From the NCBI GenBank assembly GCA_021325635.1, contig JAJPGV010000034.1:248745-312744 (forward strand): a DNA stretch of 64,000 nucleotides. Reading direction: 5' to 3'. This document shows, one piece after another, positions 2,016-26,305 of the stretch. The position numbers and the translations under genes are program-made. Origin of the DNA: Chloroflexota bacterium. Lineage in GTDB: Bacteria; Chloroflexota; JAJPGV01. Position 1 is the first letter of the stretch. Every line of letters begins with the position of its first letter. Under the pieces are notes generated by a model that saw nothing but the letters and a program-made list of their open reading frames with translations, had not been told where the DNA came from and did no database searches.

Positions 2016-3878
2016 ATGGCCCGGCTGGATACGTTCCCGCCCGGATTGGCCGGGGACACCGCGTACAACGGGCTGGACATCCAGCAGCTGCTCGCTGGGC
2101 ACCTGGCTATCTTCTTTCCCAACAACCACGGCCGGGAAGCGCTGTTCATCTACCTGCAAGCCCTGCTGGTAGCCTTCGGCGGGCAGCAGCCGCTGGTCCT
2201 GGGATTCGCTTCGGTGCTGATGGCCATGCTCACCATCGCCGCCAGCTTCCGCCTGTTCGAAGCCCTGTTCGGCTGGCGAATCGGGCTGCTGGCCGCGGCC
2301 TTGCTGTCGCTGTCCTTCTGGTCGCTCAGCTTCAGCCGCATCGGATTGCGAACCACAATGGTCGGGCCGCTGCTTGCGGCGTCGCTCTACTGCCTGCTCC
2401 GCCTGCTGGAAACCAGACGGAGAAGCTATGCGCTGCTGGGCGGCCTGGCCATGGGCCTGAGCCTGTACACCTACATCGCCGCCCGGCTGATTCCGATCCT
2501 GGCGCTGTTGATCTGCCTCATCGAGATGCGCAAGGCAAGGAAGTGTCTGAAAGAGCTTGGCCTGGCAGCTATCGCGTTCATGGTGGTGTTCGCACCCGAG
2601 GGGGTCTATTTCCTGCAGCATGGCCAAGACTTCGGCAACCGCGCGCGCGAGGTGTCGGTGTTCAATCCTCATCCCGACATCGTGGGAACGCCCAGTACCC
2701 CTGGCCGCAGCCTACTCCTCACCGCCGGGATGCTGCTCGTCAGCGGGGACACAAATCGCCAGCACAACTTGCCCGGCGAGCCGGCGCTCCCGCTGCCGGA
2801 AGCGCTGCTGTTCGTGGCCGGCCTGCTGCTGGCCCTGATTCGAGCCCGAAAGAAGCGTGGCTATCTGTGGCCCCTGGCGTGGCTGGTGGTGATGCTGATC
2901 CCCAGCGCTCTGTCGCACAGCAGTCCGGACATGCTGCAGGCTCTGTCCGCGGCACCGGCAGCCTACCTGTTCCCGGCCCTGGCGCTGGACCTCATCTGCG
3001 CCTGGCTGCCTGCATGGGGCCTGGGCTCCGCTCTGGCGTTCTCCGCCGTGCTCGCCCTCGGCGCGGAGGAGGGCTACCGTTACTTCGGACGCTGGGCCGG
3101 CGATCCGCGTACCCAAGCCCTGTTCGCAGTGACCGAACAGCGGCTGGCGCAGTACGTCAACGCGCAGCCGGAAGGCCAGGTCTTCGTCGCGTTTCCCTTT
3201 GACGACACCCTGCCCGCATTCCGCTATGCGCAGCGGCCCACGCTGGACGTGCGCTGGTTTCCGGGTGAGGGCAATTTCGTGCCCATCCCAAGGACGAGCC
3301 AGAGCGCGCTGTACATTGCCGCCAGCTCGGCGGCGCTGAACGACAACGTCATGGCCTGGATTCCCGGCGCTTTGGCGCAGGAATCCATCAGCGATGCCCT
3401 GGGCCAGACGGCGTTTCGCTCCTACCGGTTGCCGGCGGCGGCTAGGGACGCGTTTCTCAGCACCCAGCAGCCTCTGGGCGCTGATCTGGGCGACGACTTT
3501 CGGCTCAACACCTACGAGCTGGTTTCGCCTCCGGGCAAGCTGGTGGCGAACCTGATCTGGCAGCCACTGCAACCTGCCGGACCATACGACCTGAGCGCTC
3601 ATCTGGTCGACAGCACCGGCCGGCAGGTTGCCCAATCCGACCGCATTGTGTGGCCATTGGAGAAGCTCGTCGGTTCCGTGACACACGCCACGGACGGCTC
3701 GTTCGTCGCTGCGGACGATCTCCTCCTCACCCACCACGAGTTCGAGGCGGCGCCGGGGGAGTACGTGCTGGAGGTCAGCGCGATCCACTTGCAGGCCAAG
3801 GCGCCTTGGCAGGCGGGCGGATCGTCCAGCTCACCCATCGGTCAGGTGCTGCGCATCCCAGCTATCGTCAATCCATGA
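2016..3878 (+). CDS. Membrane glycosyltransferase of the PMT/ArnT (GT39) superfamily
   Basis: About 620 residues. The first half has many hydrophobic helices, and the second half is a soluble lumenal-type domain. The early GDTAYNG segment is the acidic first loop typical of GT39-like enzymes, which transfer a sugar from a polyprenyl-phosphate donor, here on the outer side of the membrane. The acceptor cannot be read from sequence. The only canonical start is ATG 2016, but the frame stays open back to a stop at 1923-1925. Those 30 codons encode a basic stretch and a Leu-rich helix (LLLGLLLLSAG), so a non-canonical start such as CTG 1938 or ATT 1941 may restore the first membrane helix. The stop overlaps the gluQ start as ATGA, suggesting coupled translation. 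Confidence 0.72.
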   Translation: MARLDTFPPGLAGDTAYNGLDIQQLLAGHLAIFFPNNHGREALFIYLQALLVAFGGQQPLVLGFASVLMAMLTIAASFRLFEALFGWRIGLLAAALLSLSFWSLSFSRIGLRTTMVGPLLAASLYCLLRLLETRRRSYALLGGLAMGLSLYTYIAARLIPILALLICLIEMRKARKCLKELGLAAIAFMVVFAPEGVYFLQHGQDFGNRAREVSVFNPHPDIVGTPSTPGRSLLLTAGMLLVSGDTNRQHNLPGEPALPLPEALLFVAGLLLALIRARKKRGYLWPLAWLVVMLIPSALSHSSPDMLQALSAAPAAYLFPALALDLICAWLPAWGLGSALAFSAVLALGAEEGYRYFGRWAGDPRTQALFAVTEQRLAQYVNAQPEGQVFVAFPFDDTLPAFRYAQRPTLDVRWFPGEGNFVPIPRTSQSALYIAASSAALNDNVMAWIPGALAQESISDALGQTAFRSYRLPAAARDAFLSTQQPLGADLGDDFRLNTYELVSPPGKLVANLIWQPLQPAGPYDLSAHLVDSTGRQVAQSDRIVWPLEKLVGSVTHATDGSFVAADDLLLTHHEFEAAPGEYVLEVSAIHLQAKAPWQAGGSSSSPIGQVLRIPAIVNP

Positions 3879-4834
3879 GCCGCGGCCGGTTCGCGCCGTC
3901 GCCCACAGGTAATCTGCACCTTGGAAGCGCCAGGACGGCGCTGGCCGCGTGGCTGGTAGCGCGCGCCGGCGGCGGCAGCTTCGTGCTGCGCATGGAGGAT
4001 CTCGACCGGCCGCGCGTCGTTCCGGGAGCAGCCGAGCGCATCTGCGAGGACCTGCGCTGGTTGGGGCTGGACTGGGACGAGGGGCCTGACGTTGGCGGAA
4101 TCCATGCCCCCTATCGTCAGAGCGAGCGCTCGGCGCTGTACGGCCAAGCGCTCGACCGGCTCTCATCGCTTGGCCTTACGTATCCATGCTTCTGCTCGCG
4201 CGCCGACGTAGCACGCGCGGCCAGCGCACCTCATGGACCGGCCGACGACGGTCCCGCCTATCCGGGCAGCTGTCGCGATCTACCGGCTGAGGAGGTGCGC
4301 AAACGGCTGGCTGAGCGGCGGCCAGCCGCCCTCCGCTTCCGGGTCCCGGAGGGCGAGATTGCTTTCGTCGATGGAGCTCGGGGCGCCGTCCGCAACCACC
4401 CCGCCAAGCATGGTGACTTCATCGTTCGCCGGGCCGACGGGCTGTACGCCTACCATCTCGCCGTCGTCGCGGACGACGTCGAGATGGCCATCGAGCAGGT
4501 CGTCCGCGGGGAAGACCTGCTCGAATCGACCGCCCGGCAGATTCTGCTGTACCGGGCGCTGAGCGCCGCTCCGCCGGCCTTCGCCCACGTTCCGCTGGTT
4601 CTGGGACCGGACGGTCAGCGCCTGGCCAAACGTCACGGCTCCATCGCGATTCGCGACGTCCGGCAACGGGGCGTAGCGCCCGAGGCCGTCTGCGGCGCGC
4701 TGGCAGCCTCGCTGGGGTTGTGCGGCGAGGGAGACAGGCTGCGACCGGCCGACCTGGTCGGCGGCTTCGGGCTGGACCGCGTCTCGCACCAGCCCCCGCG
4801 CTTGGATCCCTCGAAATGGCTATCCAGCCCATAA
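3875..4834 (+). CDS. gluQ: Glutamyl-Q tRNA(Asp) synthetase
   Basis: The 319-residue protein resembles the catalytic half of glutamyl-tRNA synthetase and lacks the anticodon-binding half, as expected for GluQ-RS, which attaches glutamate to queuosine in tRNA(Asp). FAPSPTGNLHLGS carries the HIGH-like motif at the N-terminus, and LAKRHGS near residue 250 stands for KMSKS. CFC followed by the later YPGSC fits the family zinc site. The start is the ATG overlapping the upstream stop (ATGA); the frame is open further upstream but that would run through the previous gene. Queuosine-related PTPS and FolE genes lie at 27-28.6 kb, although that PTPS looks like the folate type. Confidence 0.9.
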   Translation: MSRGRFAPSPTGNLHLGSARTALAAWLVARAGGGSFVLRMEDLDRPRVVPGAAERICEDLRWLGLDWDEGPDVGGIHAPYRQSERSALYGQALDRLSSLGLTYPCFCSRADVARAASAPHGPADDGPAYPGSCRDLPAEEVRKRLAERRPAALRFRVPEGEIAFVDGARGAVRNHPAKHGDFIVRRADGLYAYHLAVVADDVEMAIEQVVRGEDLLESTARQILLYRALSAAPPAFAHVPLVLGPDGQRLAKRHGSIAIRDVRQRGVAPEAVCGALAASLGLCGEGDRLRPADLVGGFGLDRVSHQPPRLDPSKWLSSP

Positions 4835-7129: not shown

Positions 7130-7909
7130 GTGAGCGGCAACGATGAGAAGATGCGGATCGAGCGCGCCACCCGCACTTTCAGCGCCGGATCCGTCGTCGC
7201 CTTCCAGGATCTCGACCTGTGCGTGCCCGCCAATCAGACGCTGTGCATCGTGGGGCCATCCGGCTGCGGCAAAACGACCCTGCTGCGCTGCATGGCTGGG
7301 TTGCTGACACCGACGGCCGGCCGTATCCTGCTGGACGGGCGGGTTGTGACCGCTCCCAGCCCCGCCGTGGCCATGGTGTTCCAGCACTTCGGCCTGTTCC
7401 CCTGGAAAACGGTCCACGAGAACGCCTGCTACGGCCTCAAGCTCAAAGGCATCCCCAGGAGCGAATGGAAGGCGCGCATCGCGCCCTACATCGAGCTCGT
7501 CGGGCTTACCGGCTTCGAGCACATGTATCCGTATCAGCTCTCGGGTGGAATGCAGCAGCGCACCGGCCTGGTGAGGGCGCTCGCGCTCCATCCTGAGGTG
7601 CTGCTGATGGACGAGCCCTTCGGTGCGCTCGACGCTCAGACGCGCGAGCTGCTCCAGGAAGAGCTGCTGCGCATCCTCGAGCGCGAGCGTAAGACCATGG
7701 TCTTCATCACCCACAGCATCGACGAGGCTATCGTGCTCGGCGACCATATCGCCGTGATCAGCGCCCGCCCCGGCCGCGTCCAGGAGATCATCGACGTTGG
7801 GCTGCCGTCATCGAGAACCGCCGACGATGTTCGCCTGAGTCCCCGTTACACCGAGCTCAGACAGCACATCTGGGGCGGTTTGCGACAGCAAGCCGTCGCG
7901 GCGGCGTGA
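7130..7909 (+). CDS. ABC transporter ATP-binding protein, SsuB/TauB-like
   Basis: About 259 residues. Walker A GPSGCGKTT, Q-loop VFQHFGLFPW, signature LSGGMQQR, Walker B LLMDEPFGALD and switch THSIDEA are all intact, so this should be an active transport ATPase. GTG 7130 is preferred because GGAGA sits 7 bases upstream; an earlier in-frame TTG at 7112 and a later ATG at 7151 are alternatives. The stop overlaps the permease start as GTGA, so the two are translationally coupled. The family energises uptake of sulfonates, nitrate, or related small anions and heterocycles. Confidence 0.9.
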   Translation: MSGNDEKMRIERATRTFSAGSVVAFQDLDLCVPANQTLCIVGPSGCGKTTLLRCMAGLLTPTAGRILLDGRVVTAPSPAVAMVFQHFGLFPWKTVHENACYGLKLKGIPRSEWKARIAPYIELVGLTGFEHMYPYQLSGGMQQRTGLVRALALHPEVLLMDEPFGALDAQTRELLQEELLRILERERKTMVFITHSIDEAIVLGDHIAVISARPGRVQEIIDVGLPSSRTADDVRLSPRYTELRQHIWGGLRQQAVAAA

Positions 7910-20597: not shown

Positions 20598-20639
20598 TAG
20601 GCCCGGCAGGATTCGAAGCTGCGACCCTGGGATTATGAG
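20598..20639 (-). pseudogene. 3' half of a tRNA(CAT) gene, left edge of inserted element
   Basis: Reading the minus strand, CTCATAA (20639-20633) is an anticodon loop with anticodon CAT. It is followed by the 3' anticodon strand TCCCA, a variable loop, the T-arm GCAGC-TTCGAAT-CCTGC, an acceptor strand CGGGCCT and discriminator A at 20598. The sequence before the loop does not form a 5' half. The acceptor strand pairs with GGGCCCG at 26195-26189, the orphan 5' half 5.5 kb away. A C-C mismatch in the T-stem and a G-A mismatch in the joined anticodon stem suggest decay. The D-arm of the other half resembles tRNA-Ile2 (ileX). Confidence 0.75.
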
Positions 20640-20809: not shown

Positions 20810-22398
20810 GTACTTGTTTAGCGGATCGGTGCGAGCTTGTGTGACGTGATAGAGGCGACTGCAAGGCAGCCTGGCGTAAAGAGATTAAGCGTGGCCAGCA
20901 AAGATAGGGAACTGCAACGGTGCGACCAGGGGGATAGGTGCACGCAGCAGGTCAGCGATGATCTCGGTGGAGTCACGGCCCTGTTGCTGGCAGGTGCGTA
21001 GCAGGCTGGCGAGGACTTGCTGTGTCTCCACACCAGCAGGGGTGCGGTTGCCGCCCCAGACCTTGCGGTTGACGACTGCTGGATGGATGGCCTGCTCCGC
21101 GCGCCAGTTGGTGGCTTGCACGCCTTCGTGATGCAGATAGGTGAACAACGCCTGTCGTTCCCGCCTGAGATGCTGCAGCAGCCGCCGGTTGCCGGGGTGC
21201 TGCGTCTGCTTGGCCAGTAACCGGTCCACGCGGTGCTCCACGTCGGCCACGGCCGCTTCGTACGCGACGACCGGCAGCGAGCCAGCGTCACGCTGCTGGC
21301 GGAGATCCAGACCTTCTCGCAGGAGCCGCCGCACCGCCAGAGGAATCTCGCGCGCCCGGCCATGAGCGGTTGTCAGCAACTGCCGGCAGCGTCGCATCAG
21401 ATGCGCTGTACACGTCTGGTGCGTGGCCTGGCTGAACCGTCTGTATGGAGCCCAGCCATCGCGTTCCAGCACACCGTTGAACTCCTTCCCCAGGATGGCG
21501 GCCGCCTCGTCGAAGCCCCGGCCTGGCTGAATGCTGTAGACCGTCACGCCTTGCCCGCTGAAGACCCACAGCCAGTGCAGGCGGCCACCGACCTTCCAGC
21601 CCGTCTCATCAGGCGCGACCACCGGGCTGGCGCGTACCGCTTGGATCAACGCGTCGTAGGTCGGGCCAGCCATGCGGCCGGCTCGCGCCAGCGCCTGACT
21701 CAGGCCACCCCGCGTCACCTCCAGGCCGCCCAGTTGCTGCAAGATCGTCGCCGTCTTGCCCAACGAGGCGCCGACGGCCTTGTTCAGCTGCGCCGCCAGC
21801 GCCACGGCCCGCGGCCCCAACTGGGCTTTGGCCGCGCCCAGGGCATCCGAGGTCTGCTCGGGGTGCCGTCCCTGCACCCGTCGTCCGCAGCGCTGACAGC
21901 GGCCCACATGCATCTGGAAGCGCGTCACTTCAGGGCGCACCTCCGGCAACTCTTCTTGATACTGCTCGGCCACCTGCTGCTCCTCCAGCGGCCCGCCACA
22001 GTGCGGGCAGCAGGGCGGCAGTGGCACGTCGATCGTCCGATCGACCTGGGCTGGTATGGCTCGGCACGCCTTCCGGCCGTAGGCGCTTCCGGCCTGTCGT
22101 CCCGGTCGCTTGCCGTCGCCGCGGGGCTCACTCTTGGAGAACGGCGCCGCCTGTCGCTTGCCCGCCTGCTGCGCTTGTTCCAGCTGGGCGGTCAGGTCCC
22201 ACAGCCGCCGCTTCAGCCGTTCGTTCTCTTGCTCCAGCCGCTCCAGCTCGCGCTGCCGCTCCTCGCAGGCTTCGCAGCCAGCACGCTCCCACTCCTCGTC
22301 ATGGGCACCTTCTTCCGCCGGCGGCACGATCCTCATGCTGCATGAACAGACGTTCTACCATCGCGTTGTGTCACGCACCTAACCCGCTAATCAAGTAC
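20810..22398 (-). mobile_element. IS66-family insertion sequence (single-gene, ISBst12-like)
   Basis: 1,589 bp. Both ends start GTACTTGNTTAGCGG and continue with a related GGTGCG block (left 20810-20833, right 22398-22374), giving imperfect terminal inverted repeats. The element is flanked by the 8-bp direct repeat CTTTGATC at 20802-20809 and 22399-22406, the length expected for IS66. It carries only the transposase, without tnpA/tnpB accessory genes. The intact duplication indicates a simple transposition with no later rearrangement. It lies 31 bases downstream of the helicase stop, inside the tRNA-borne element. Confidence 0.88.
20885..22336 (-). CDS. IS66-family transposase
   Basis: 483 residues. 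An N-terminal leucine-zipper-like helix (about 25-55) is followed by the zinc-binding pair CPHCGG and CQRCG (about 110-150). The DDE catalytic residues are visible as the Asp in VAPDETGW, the Asp in LERDGWAPYRRF, and the Glu in NWRAEQAIHPAVVNRK. All family motifs are present, so the enzyme looks active. The gene fills the IS between the two terminal repeats. Confidence 0.9.
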   Translation of the reverse strand: MRIVPPAEEGAHDEEWERAGCEACEERQRELERLEQENERLKRRLWDLTAQLEQAQQAGKRQAAPFSKSEPRGDGKRPGRQAGSAYGRKACRAIPAQVDRTIDVPLPPCCPHCGGPLEEQQVAEQYQEELPEVRPEVTRFQMHVGRCQRCGRRVQGRHPEQTSDALGAAKAQLGPRAVALAAQLNKAVGASLGKTATILQQLGGLEVTRGGLSQALARAGRMAGPTYDALIQAVRASPVVAPDETGWKVGGRLHWLWVFSGQGVTVYSIQPGRGFDEAAAILGKEFNGVLERDGWAPYRRFSQATHQTCTAHLMRRCRQLLTTAHGRAREIPLAVRRLLREGLDLRQQRDAGSLPVVAYEAAVADVEHRVDRLLAKQTQHPGNRRLLQHLRRERQALFTYLHHEGVQATNWRAEQAIHPAVVNRKVWGGNRTPAGVETQQVLASLLRTCQQQGRDSTEIIADLLRAPIPLVAPLQFPIFAGHA

Positions 22399-22429: not shown

Positions 22430-24280
22430 TCAGACCGCAGAGGTTGATTGGTAAGAATCGATAACGGAATAGCCGATTGCTCTGTACCCTTTCAGCCGCT
22501 TCTCGTGCATCCGAAGCAGCATGGGGAGGTTGCTGTCCACGTAGTCGAAGATCTGCACAGTCTGTTTGCCGGGGTGCAAACGGTGCAATCGACCTGCGTA
22601 CTGTTGAACGGTTCCACGCCATGACACAGGGAGCGTCAGGAACAACGTGTCGAGCCGAGCCTCATCAAATCCCTCACCTATGTACCGGCCGGTGGCAATC
22701 AGCACCTTCGGCTGGCCGTCCGCGATCGCCCGAAACAGCTCAAGTCGCTTGCGGCGCTCTCTCACACCTAACCCTCCTCGAAACACAACCGTCTTCGCTC
22801 CGTGAGCTTCGATAGCTGCTGCTAGCTTCTCGAGGTGATCGGTGCGCTCCGTCAATACCAGCGGAGACCGTCCAGCCTGAACCGCTGCAAGCACGTCCTT
22901 AACCATGAGCGAGGTCCGTGGGTCATCAGCTGCCAAACGAGAATAGAGGTCTTGGATGCCCGCATCTTGGACGTCCGAGGGCAGCTTGAAGTCCGTTTGG
23001 CGGACGATGACTTCGTGCGCAAAGGGCCGTAGTGCGGCTTGTTCCTTGGCGGGCACGTTGCAACGGATTGGTCCGCATTGCATCGCGATGATGGGATGGT
23101 GCCCGTCCTTACGAACTGGCGTCGCCGTTAGCCCGACGACAAAACGAGCATGCACTTCCCTCATGACTTTCTCGAAGCCGAAGGCAGGTATGTGATGACA
23201 CTCGTCGACGATGACTTGCCCGTATGTGGCTACCAGGTCGCGAACCTCGCCACCGCGATTAAGGCTCTGCAGCAGCGCGACGTCGATGGTGCCCGAAGGC
23301 CGTCGCTTGCCAGCTCCAACTTGGCCGATTGCCTTGGGCGCCAAATTAAGGAAAGCCAGCAGTCGTTCGCGCCACTGCTCAAGGAGATGCTGGGGGTGCA
23401 CGACAACCAAAGTATTTACACTGCGCTGTGCAATCAGCCAAGCAGCGATGACTGTCTTGCCGAATGCGGTCGGCGCGGACAGCACGCCAACGTCGTGCTC
23501 CATCAGCGCATCGGCTGCCGCTTGCTGTTGGTCTGTGAGCTGGCCATTGAACGCGACGGTAATCGGTGTTCCCGGTCGGCGCTGATCATCTGCCAGGATC
23601 TGCACACCATTTGCACGGGCGAGCTGAAGCAGCTCGGGCAGACACTTTCGGGGCAGCGCCAGGTGATCGGGAAAAGCCTCCGAGCAATCAATCAGCCGGG
23701 GTTTGCCGAATGTCGATAGCCGCATTCGCTCTGCCCTGTAGAACTCCGGGTTCTGGAACGCTGCTAGACGCCGGAGACGATTGATCAAGACTGGCGGCAA
23801 GTCTTTCATGGCGACGAACAGCTGATTCGCCAAGACGATACTCACGCTGGCCCGCAGGGGGCCGGGAATAGGCGCCTCGCTTCTGCGCCGCAAGGGCGAA
23901 ACAGTCCATGGCTCCGACTCATCTTCTGCATCGATCCAGTGATCGACGGCGAGGAGTCTGCCAGCTCGCGCGGCGCGCTTGACAATGGCTTCCGCTTCAG
24001 AAGGGTCGAGCTTTGGCAAAGATGCCAAGAAGCGCCACTGGTCGGGGTAAGGCTCGAGATCGTGATCCAGGAAGACCGTGTTGCCCCGCTCACGGCTTTG
24101 ACGTTGCAGTGGCAACGCGATCAGGTTGCCGAAGCCACCTCTGGGTAGAGTGTCCTGACTCGGGAACAGCCGATCGTACGAATCGAGGCCAATCTGGTGG
24201 CGCCGGTCGAGTGCTTGTGTGAGCACCGCACTGGCCAGGTTCCGCGCCACGTAGGCTGCGACGGGTCGATCGAAAAACAC
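22430..24280 (-). CDS. TOTE-type primase-helicase, C-terminal part (primase end plus SF2 helicase), separated by a frameshift
   Basis: 616 residues in this frame. The first ~170 continue an archaeo-eukaryotic-type primase domain (SYDRLFPSQDTLPRGGFGNL). An SF2 helicase follows: Walker A APTAFGKT, DECHH, GLTATPVRKDG, and the C-terminal lobe with GFDEARLDTLFLTLP and QYAGRLHR. The real start is not in this frame. The open frame runs upstream to about 24333 and encodes ALERSRSGEGAHLWVFF, the primase His motif, while the first part of the primase is in another frame. Proteins with this layout are the TOTE conflict-system enzymes, which are thought to act on invading or mobile DNA and are often associated with nucleases. 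The IS66 copy lies just beyond the stop. Confidence 0.8.
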   Translation of the reverse strand: MFFDRPVAAYVARNLASAVLTQALDRRHQIGLDSYDRLFPSQDTLPRGGFGNLIALPLQRQSRERGNTVFLDHDLEPYPDQWRFLASLPKLDPSEAEAIVKRAARAGRLLAVDHWIDAEDESEPWTVSPLRRRSEAPIPGPLRASVSIVLANQLFVAMKDLPPVLINRLRRLAAFQNPEFYRAERMRLSTFGKPRLIDCSEAFPDHLALPRKCLPELLQLARANGVQILADDQRRPGTPITVAFNGQLTDQQQAAADALMEHDVGVLSAPTAFGKTVIAAWLIAQRSVNTLVVVHPQHLLEQWRERLLAFLNLAPKAIGQVGAGKRRPSGTIDVALLQSLNRGGEVRDLVATYGQVIVDECHHIPAFGFEKVMREVHARFVVGLTATPVRKDGHHPIIAMQCGPIRCNVPAKEQAALRPFAHEVIVRQTDFKLPSDVQDAGIQDLYSRLAADDPRTSLMVKDVLAAVQAGRSPLVLTERTDHLEKLAAAIEAHGAKTVVFRGGLGVRERRKRLELFRAIADGQPKVLIATGRYIGEGFDEARLDTLFLTLPVSWRGTVQQYAGRLHRLHPGKQTVQIFDYVDSNLPMLLRMHEKRLKGYRAIGYSVIDSYQSTSAV

Positions 24281-24876
24281 CCACAGGTGGGCACCTTCGC
24301 CTGACCGGGATCGCTCCAGCGCGGCGGGCCCCTCAAGTCAGAATAGATGCCCATGGCGGCCTGGGCATCGTCGCGCCAACTGGCCTTGTCGAAATCCATC
24401 GCTACAAACCAGCAGGTGTCATCGGTCAGGAGTGGGTAGACGCCGATAGTGACGCCGCCCGTTAGGTGATTTCGCAGTGCTGCCGGGGTCAGCGGCAGAT
24501 AGTCGCCTGGCTCATGCGTCACGCCAGGTCCGCGAGGAGCGCCCAAGCGCAACGCGGGCGAGTAGCCGCTTCGGCCGTCGTGCCGTTCCCAGCGGGCCGC
24601 GTAGACGTCTTCGCGTCCACGGAACAACCCTCGGAAGAGGGCTAACTTCAACTCCGCCGAAGAGCTGGCGCCGATCCCGTCCGCTTCGTAGGACGCCACA
24701 GCAAGTAGACCATCCCCTTTCGATTGAGGATGGTTGCGCTTAAGAGCGGCAAGCTCCTCACGGAGACGTTGGTTCTCATCTCTTAGTACGAGGATGGTCT
24801 CCAGGGCGTCTTTCAACGCCGAACGCTGCCTATCTGGTGGAGCGTCGGTCTGCGCGTGCTTGCGTTGGGCGATCAA
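24121..24876 (-). CDS. TOTE-type primase, N-terminal part, frameshifted
   Basis: The first ~185 residues are genuine. They comprise a coiled coil (about 20-48), then LFRGLFRGREDVYAARWE, SGYSPALRLG and CWFVAMDFDKASW, which contains the DxD metal site of archaeo-eukaryotic primases. After GIYSDLRG the frame runs into meaningless sequence and stops at 24121. The right continuation lies one frame over, with the switch in the GC run at about 24322-24333. The corrected product would be about 815 residues. It starts with TTG inside the PIN-gene stop (TTGA), so the three genes are translationally coupled. A recent inactivating mutation, a sequencing error or programmed frameshifting would all look like this. 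Confidence 0.75.
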   Translation of the reverse strand: MIAQRKHAQTDAPPDRQRSALKDALETILVLRDENQRLREELAALKRNHPQSKGDGLLAVASYEADGIGASSSAELKLALFRGLFRGREDVYAARWERHDGRSGYSPALRLGAPRGPGVTHEPGDYLPLTPAALRNHLTGGVTIGVYPLLTDDTCWFVAMDFDKASWRDDAQAAMGIYSDLRGPPRWSDPGQAKVPTCGCFSIDPSQPTWRGTWPVRCSHKHSTGATRLASIRTIGCSRVRTLYPEVASAT

Positions 24877-25376
24877 GGAATGCGCCGACCCGCTTCCTCA
24901 GCGCGCATGGTCAATCCAGCGCCGGGATGCGTTGATTCCAGGAGGGTCAGGAACTCCTGCGGGGTGACGAAGCGAACACCAGCGACTTGATGGCTAGCCG
25001 GGAAATCGCGTGTGTTGAGGGAGACAATGAATACTGCATGAGCAGCCATGGCAGTTGCCAGGACTGGCTCGTCATCTGGATCTTTGAGCAGTTCAGACGC
25101 TCCCGCCGAGCGGTAGTCGGAAACGCTCAGAACCTCCGACAGCAAATGAATCAGCCGGTTTATTCGTTCCCGATACAGGGCGCGCGGTACTCGCAGACGT
25201 ATGCTGTGCTCGACACGAATCCGCACCAGTTCGCCGACAATGAATGTGCTCCAAACGCCGCGGTAATAACCGAGGTCCGCTAGCAGCCAGAGCCAATGAC
25301 GATGGCTGCTCAAGAGAACGGAAGTGTCCAGCACTGCGAGAGTCGCATCCACGGGGGACGCGACCTCGTCGCTCAC
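24873..25376 (-). CDS. PIN-domain nuclease (VapC-like toxin candidate)
   Basis: 167 residues. Acidic residues sit at PIN positions: Asp in AVLDTSVLLSS (about 17), Glu in FIVGELVRIR (about 49), Asp in LKDPDDEPVLATAMAA (about 98-101) and Asp in SLNTRDFP (about 118). The family cleaves RNA, usually as a toxin. It starts with a GTG inside the stop of the helix-turn-helix gene (GTGA) and its stop overlaps the primase-helicase start (TTGA). It could be an ordinary toxin with its antitoxin upstream, or the nuclease subunit of the primase-helicase system. Confidence 0.75.
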   Translation of the reverse strand: MSDEVASPVDATLAVLDTSVLLSSHRHWLWLLADLGYYRGVWSTFIVGELVRIRVEHSIRLRVPRALYRERINRLIHLLSEVLSVSDYRSAGASELLKDPDDEPVLATAMAAHAVFIVSLNTRDFPASHQVAGVRFVTPQEFLTLLESTHPGAGLTMRAEEAGRRIP

Positions 25377-25735
25377 AGCTTAGTGCGCCCTTGCGCAACC
25401 AGGCGTGCAGCCTGGCCATCGCTCAAGTCCTCTAGGTCAAGCGAGGTCTCGGCCCGGCGTACGTAGTCCGCAACCGCATCCTTCGGAACCATAACGCGTG
25501 AACCAACTCGGTACGCCGCCAGCCTGCCGTGGCGGACCCAATTCTTGATGGTCTGGCCGCTCACACCAAGCAAGTCACCTGCCTGAGTGCTTGTCAGCAG
25601 ATCGAGGGACGGCAGTTGCTCATCGCCGACAGCCTTGACAAGCGTTTCTATGGCCTTCGCCTGATCGACCTCGCCTCGCTGCCTGAGGTCGTCAGCGGTG
25701 CGTTGGGCTAGCTTGAGCGTCTTCGCGGTTACCAT
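25373..25735 (-). CDS. Helix-turn-helix DNA-binding protein (MerR/excisionase type), probable antitoxin or regulator
   Basis: 120 residues. LLTSTQAGDLLGVSGQTIKNW with GRLAAYRVGSRVMVPKDAVADYV (about 46-90) is an excisionase-like winged helix-turn-helix. The N-terminal helices and charged C-terminal tail (LEDLSDGQAARLVAQG) look like an antitoxin dimer or toxin-binding tail. It is the first gene of a three-gene run with 4-base overlaps, so it probably autoregulates the operon. It could alternatively serve as an excisionase of the surrounding element. No Shine-Dalgarno is visible, suggesting a leaderless or short-leader transcript. Confidence 0.72.
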   Translation of the reverse strand: MVTAKTLKLAQRTADDLRQRGEVDQAKAIETLVKAVGDEQLPSLDLLTSTQAGDLLGVSGQTIKNWVRHGRLAAYRVGSRVMVPKDAVADYVRRAETSLDLEDLSDGQAARLVAQGRTKL

Positions 25736-25778
25736 TTGCAGTTTTTACTCTACCGCAAAGATTAGAACCTCAGTCTAG

Positions 25779-25851
25779 TGGGCCTACTCGGATTCGAACC
25801 GAGGACCAGCGGTTTATGAGACCGCCGCTCTGACCGCTGAGCTATAGGCCC
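25779..25851 (-). tRNA. tRNA with anticodon CAT (tRNA-Ile2 or tRNA-Met), carried by the inserted element
   Basis: A complete 73-nt cloverleaf: acceptor GGGCCTA/TAGGCCC pairs perfectly, D-arm GCTC/GAGC, anticodon arm GCGGT-CTCATAA-ACCGC, T-arm CTCGG-TTCGAAT-CCGAG, discriminator A. CCA is not encoded. The initiator-type three G-C pairs are absent, and the GGGCCTATAGCTC start fits tRNA-Ile2, whose CAT anticodon becomes AUA-reading after lysidine modification; elongator Met cannot be excluded. It lies inside an element that splits another CAT tRNA, and so could supply the lost function. Confidence 0.88.
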
Positions 25852-26152: not shown

Positions 26153-26195
26153 GGAGATTATGAGTCCCCTGCTCTAACCACTGAGCTACGGGCCC
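26153..26195 (-). pseudogene. 5' half of a tRNA(CAT) gene, right edge of inserted element
   Basis: The minus strand gives acceptor GGGCCCG (26195-26189), TA, D-arm GCTC-AGTGGTTA-GAGC, A, anticodon 5' strand GGGGA and loop CTCATAA (26164-26158). TCTCC follows, which can close the anticodon stem, but then unrelated sequence with no T-arm or 3' acceptor. D-arm and loop closely resemble E. coli ileX. The matching 3' half is at 20598-20639; the shared core is CTCATAATC. Confidence 0.75.
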
Positions 26196-26305
26196 GCGCT
26201 TCGACTATAAGGCTAGCGGGTCTGCCTCGGGTGCATGCCGACCGGGCGGCGTGGTGTGGGGCGCGAACTATACTCCAAACCAGTGACTCGTTTGGAGCGT
26301 TTCCT

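Follow-up and report, generated by a model that had tools for sequence, protein, structure and literature searches.

What kind of unit is formed by three tightly coupled genes, encoding a helix-turn-helix (HTH) protein, a PIN nuclease and a primase fused to a helicase, in the genome of a Chloroflexota bacterium? They lie in a stretch of 64,000 nucleotides (hereafter, the window; GenBank assembly GCA_021325635.1, contig JAJPGV010000034.1, positions 248,745 to 312,744 of the forward strand), and the original prediction, made from the letters alone, took them for one defence or mobility unit with the PIN domain as its effector. Comparison with other loci makes it fairly probable that the operon travels as cargo in an integrase-less, tRNA-targeting mobile cassette of small size, built from a primase-helicase core and a swappable toxin-antitoxin (TA) module. 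Judged from sequence, the unit has tRNA borders, carries no recognised integrase and exchanges its modules.

All three genes are found on the minus strand with the domains and overlaps predicted for them. The first (25373..25735) encodes an excisionase-family HTH_17 DNA-binding protein (Pfam HTH_17, 2.8e-12; TIGR01764, 5.5e-11), which also matches the excisionase models phrog_66/2907 and is a probable antitoxin and autorepressor. The second (24873..25376), overlapping it by 4 nucleotides (nt), encodes a PIN_3 nuclease (Pfam PIN_3, 4.5e-9), probably the toxin, and the third (22430..24876) combines an archaeo-eukaryotic primase (AEP, or PrimPol) with an XPB-like superfamily 2 (SF2) helicase. The 4-nt stop/start overlaps read GTGA at the first junction and TTGA at the second, where the overlap depends on a plausible TTG start of the third gene. 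The domains expected of the third gene are present, with AEP-TOTE (PF22548) scored on two open reading frame (ORF) fragments (4.5e-29 and 7.7e-35), followed by ResIII (1.2e-19) and Helicase_C (6.6e-6; all Pfam), but a deletion of 1 nt near 24338 interrupts its frame, leaving ORFs 24121-24876 and 22430-24280.

By its sequence, the operon sits in an insertion within a tRNA-Met(CAT)-type gene, which it divides in two. The left border is the 5' half of this gene (26156..26197, minus strand; a single exact match in the window), ending in CTCATAATC, and the right border is the corresponding 3' half (20598..20639, minus strand), which begins with CTCATAATC. When joined, the two halves are recognised by ARAGORN as a complete tRNA-Met(cat), an outcome given by 1 of 601 control joins. 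The 5.5 kb between them contain an intact tRNA-Met(CAT) (25778..25851, minus strand; ARAGORN; Rfam, 74.7 bits), whose 3' end points toward the operon and lies 42 bp ahead of the HTH start codon, the operon itself, and an IS66-family transposase ORF (20885..22336, minus strand; Pfam DDE_Tnp_IS66, 4.4e-36), which is either a later passenger or a mark of decay. A search for PF00589 integrases near the operon (C50:269-275 kb) gave no match. On the opposite strand of the intact tRNA (25778-25851, plus), the Rfam Plastid-ycf2 5'UTR model scores below its cut-off, apparently as a spurious hit derived from the tRNA.

The same genome holds a second copy (contig C17, locus L029), in which the primase-helicase is 75% identical in DNA to that of the window. 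This unit of 4,088 bp contains the primase-helicase, HTH and PIN genes only, and is bracketed, at 7668 and 11756, by direct repeats of 46 nt (1 mismatch) that correspond to the 3' half of tRNA-Gly(GCC) from within the anticodon stem onward. The intact tRNA-Gly is found at the end of a contig (C60), and no PF00589 integrase was matched on contig C17. Together with the split tRNA of the window, these repeats uphold the predicted membership in a mobility unit. Across the tRNA-Gly repeat from the cassette, positions 2106-7345 of L029 encode an AbiEi-AbiEii pair, a probable NYN/PIN-like protein and small TA-like genes, and the site thus looks like a tandem array. An integrase-like gene (C55:12238-13430) stands beside a tRNA-Gly(TCC) whose 3' end is 1 base off the tRNA-Gly(GCC) repeat; this possible helper is on the 5' side of its tRNA, may be broken and is a lead only.

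In other genomes, direct repeats of tRNA 3' ends, 18-70 nt long, bracket the AEP gene at ten loci. These are L052 (70 nt), L049 (48), L045 (38), L114 (33), L051 (31), L063, L039 and L099 (21 each), L067 (18) and L098, the last of them from a search for tRNA tails. None of 517 mismatched-flank controls reached a score of at least 20; L067 and L099 score 18, under this threshold, yet coincide with tRNA 3' ends. The tRNA-bounded units measure 3.8-5.8 kb and contain, apart from the AEP gene, a Fic gene, AbiE pairs, a DUF1016/YhcG nuclease, a Zeta-like toxin or nothing recognised. The pattern was found again in L225, L229, L231 and L242 of an independent replication set of 40 loci, and the 3' end of the flanking tRNA gene faces the AEP gene in 20/21 cases of the first set and 11/11 of the replication set (31/32 together, the clustered tRNAs among the 32 not being independent). 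Inside the tRNA-Met-bounded unit of L098, in an Aminicenantes genome, a Phage_integrase-family protein is encoded at 3328-3975. In L242, three tRNA-Glu 3'-end repeats of 44-90 nt (at 2942, 5197 and 13527) partition an island in which several AbiE-like genes surround a primase-helicase. Long direct repeats around the AEP gene in L075, L086, L058, L091, L219 and L224 could not be recognised as tRNA-derived and were left uncounted; in L091, for example, the primase-helicase lies between copies of an 88-nt repeat (3941 and 8600) without recognisable likeness to a tRNA.

The partner of the primase-helicase varies from locus to locus. In 80 loci, AbiEi and AbiEii are the most frequent neighbours, as a rule upstream in the same direction and separated by a few bp to about 100 bp. 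Fic, AAA_14/DUF4143, Schlafen/AlbA and PIN genes also occur there, and plasmid copies adjoin HigBA, HipBA or AbiEii. In the first set, 55 AbiE/PIN/HTH genes fall within 2.2 kb of the AEP gene (0.185 per kb) versus 1 further out (0.003 per kb), whereas the replication set gives 0.10 versus 0.038 per kb. The latter is the safer figure, because the local AbiE/PIN/HTH models derive in part from neighbours in the first set itself, and because related loci do not count as independent. The neighbours of the primase-helicase are exchangeable TA-like modules, AbiE most often and otherwise PIN, Fic, Zeta, HigBA or HipBA. Another partner variant occurs in L123 (2649-4042), where an HTH gene overlaps an AbiEii-like nucleotidyltransferase gene by 4 nt beside a primase-helicase fragment.

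The HTH-PIN pair is one of these modules. Relatives of the window PIN were found in 49 of 400 genomes of its own phylum, and an HTH gene adjoins the PIN gene in 21 of the 29 loci fetched (window excluded), in most cases with an overlap or no more than tens of bases away, while a primase-helicase occurs within the fetched flank of none (0/29). In the closest relative (L127, 67% identity), the HTH and PIN genes likewise overlap by 4 nt, and in the window, as in the stand-alone relatives, the HTH gene lies directly upstream of and overlaps the PIN gene. By these counts HTH-PIN is a common free-standing TA-like module, which agrees with the TA-like character first ascribed to the pair. PIN and HTH_17 genes stand beside a primase-helicase at three loci, namely the window, L029 (divergent) and L048 (convergent), so the predicted association recurs beyond the window. 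The PINs of L029 and L048 are only about 30% identical to that of the window, against 75% DNA identity between the two primase-helicases of this genome, and the pair therefore looks like an exchangeable partner that was swapped in. A fixed three-gene defence system, as proposed, does not fit these loci, since HTH-PIN usually stands alone and the primase-helicase is more often found with AbiE or other TA pairs.

We infer the function of the cassette, its helper integrase and its phenotype as follows. A tyrosine integrase acting in trans would recombine the cassette at anticodon-loop/3'-half sites of tRNA genes. The HTH protein would repress its own promoter, placed in the 42-bp interval that separates its start codon from the tRNA 3' end; in this position the protein may also cover an attachment site. 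There is precedent in AbiEi and SezA, antitoxins that control the excision of integrative and conjugative elements (ICEs) by binding oriT/attL (PMC11062541), and this was counted as support. The HTH protein would also neutralise the PIN RNase, so that a cell losing the cassette would be penalised by the freed toxin and the element thereby stabilised, with PIN as an addiction or abortive toxin. The primase-helicase, for its part, would act on exposed or replicating DNA, and it more likely benefits cassette and host, in conflict or maintenance, than serves as a phage replication gene.

Several observations weigh against such a cassette. In the window, a 9-nt core is all that the border halves have in common, an intact tRNA and IS66 are also present in the island, and the intact tRNA-Met has no distal repeat above chance. 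No helper integrase was found beside either copy, and one unit (L098, alone among the ten of other genomes) does carry a recognised integrase. Loci with tRNA repeats are a minority, about 11/87 and 4-5/40, a share that is a lower bound because many contigs are short; among 11 fetched loci from Pseudomonadota there was no convincing case. The enrichment of TA genes is weaker in the replication set (2.7-fold), and the Escherichia coli copies examined lie among insertion sequence (IS) elements with no TA pair. That the units make up an undescribed, phylum-spanning family of integrase-less, tRNA-inserting elements of about 4-6 kb, each with a PrimPol-XPB-type fusion and an interchangeable TA module, is a tentative proposal, to which we give slightly less than an even chance. 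If it is true, the primase-helicase would be a TA-guarded enzyme of conflict or self-propagation.

A tRNA hotspot may instead have gathered a stand-alone HTH-PIN pair and a primase-helicase separately, in which case their overlap and order would have no functional meaning. The solitary HTH-PIN pairs of relatives, the clustering of TA genes in islands and the broken AEP gene of the window all agree with this. Nevertheless, a single pair of tRNA repeats on C17 encloses exactly these three genes, TA genes of the first set are concentrated beside the AEP gene rather than 2-6 kb away, and AbiEii and AEP genes repeatedly lie in the same direction a few to tens of bp apart, all of which makes mere accumulation unlikely. 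The cassette could also be a satellite-like replicon, in which the primase-helicase copies the excised DNA, the excisionase-family HTH protein directs excision and PIN is an addiction toxin. AEPs of mobile elements are commonly replication proteins (PMC5862659), the HTH protein matches excisionase models (TIGR01764, phrog_66/2907) and tRNA borders are present. However, XPB/RadD-type SF2 helicases are of the repair or restriction type and not replicative, neither a replication origin nor an integrase was seen, and most other units have AbiEi-type regulators or none instead of an HTH_17 gene, so that a replicon of this kind appears quite improbable.

Closest to the original prediction is a dedicated defence complex, in which the XPB-like primase-helicase would load on invader DNA with PIN as the nuclease effector and HTH as repressor or sensor. 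It draws on an analogy, as archaeal XPB pairs with the nuclease Bax1; it would also suit the 4-nt coupling across all three genes and the nearest structures, archaeal XPBII (6P4F, 5TNU) for the helicase and CRISPR-associated PrimPol (7NQD, 7NQF) for the primase. But other units replace PIN with unrelated non-nuclease toxins (AbiEii nucleotidyltransferase, Fic, Zeta), which speaks against PIN as the effector of one defence unit, and at the three loci with a PIN gene the PIN proteins show no more than about 30% identity and differ in orientation each time. We regard this complex as very unlikely, and a mobile cassette with an exchangeable TA module remains the favoured reading.

The primase-helicase of the window was itself compared with the intact copy of the same genome, an 812-aa protein in L029, against which the 1-nt deletion was placed. 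Between the two copies, dN/dS is 0.17 upstream of the frameshift and 0.11 downstream of it, so the frameshift is read either as recent, in a gene that purifying selection had maintained until then, or as an assembly error. A programmed -1 frameshift at the G GGC CCG heptamer of the break was rejected because relatives carry a single open frame. The window copy has probably kept a working HTH-PIN pair beside a broken primase-helicase.

The family of the primase-helicase is widespread, with at least 540 relatives in a scan of genome contigs. Searches of three phyla placed it in 9/400, 33/396 and 15/399 genomes, and it also occurs on 110 plasmids. A role as a phage replication gene is not favoured, as none of 50,697 phage records matches, although 16 IMG/VR contigs do, 8 of them near full length. 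In E. coli, 1,723 of 5,426 complete genomes have a relative, mostly as a fragment only; intact copies examined (e.g., L275 6001-8361) have IS66 genes downstream, as in the window. NCBI labels these homologues as TOTE conflict-system primases, and they are candidate members of the Z1568-like AEP family (as defined by Iyer et al. 2005; listed in PMC5862659). Despite the label and this wide occurrence, no paper testing the function of these primase-helicases was found in the literature searched. By defining which genes move together, the tRNA borders delimit a testable unit and help explain the varied small partners, and the swapping of TA modules on a constant core bears on whether TA pairs on mobile DNA serve in maintenance or defence.

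How does such a unit compare with known systems? TOTE stands for TPR, OB, TBP and Effector (PMC12458937). The primase domain of the window does belong to the Pfam AEP-TOTE family, in line with the TOTE-type primase first proposed, but the operon has HTH, PIN, AEP and helicase domains only and the one other ORF of the insertion is IS66; membership in a TOTE system was rejected because the TPR, OB and TBP partners are absent, and TOTE is here a domain name. The primase domain (profile 121-293) is likewise homologous to CRISPR-associated PrimPol (PDB 7NQD/7NQF, E about 2e-20), from which the window protein differs by its fusion to an XPB-like helicase, closest in PDB, by sequence, to archaeal XPBII; the NCBIfam CAPP model NF040561 gives 45.2 and 34.5 bits, for a gene scored as two fragments, against a cut-off of 200. 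As in AbiE type IV and HTH-PIN TA modules, an HTH antitoxin-like gene overlaps the PIN gene, and AbiE fills the same slot in related units, but in the window a gene for a primase-helicase is coupled to the pair.

Among tRNA-associated elements, the satellite-phage-like islands with ARMADA, Druantia or Zorya (PMC12458937) are far larger and have integrase, excisionase and Rep genes. Tycheposons (PMC10872708) are tRNA-bounded with variable cargo, like the cassettes, but are described with a tyrosine recombinase, which the units here lack except for L098. No description of the present combination, a conserved core gene with TA swapping, was found in the open-licence literature. Additive flexible genomic islands (PMC10872708) consist of tandem segments ending in copies of tRNA 3' ends, as on C17 and in L242, but they are defined by location and their contents are mostly unknown, whereas the cassettes share a core gene. 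Cis-mobilizable elements (CIMEs) and hitchers (PMC5704250, PMC11389934) have attachment-site repeats and no integrase of their own and are probably moved by others; flanking repeats (46 nt on C17, the 9-nt core of the split tRNA in the window) occur here too, without a PF00589 integrase. CIMEs, however, are decayed ICEs or integrative and mobilizable elements (IMEs), while these cassettes are compact, of similar size and spread over many phyla, with a constant core gene and a TA module. We read the gene set of the window as belonging to a modular type of cassette, tRNA-targeting and integrase-less, for which CIMEs/hitchers and additive genomic islands are the closest named kinds.

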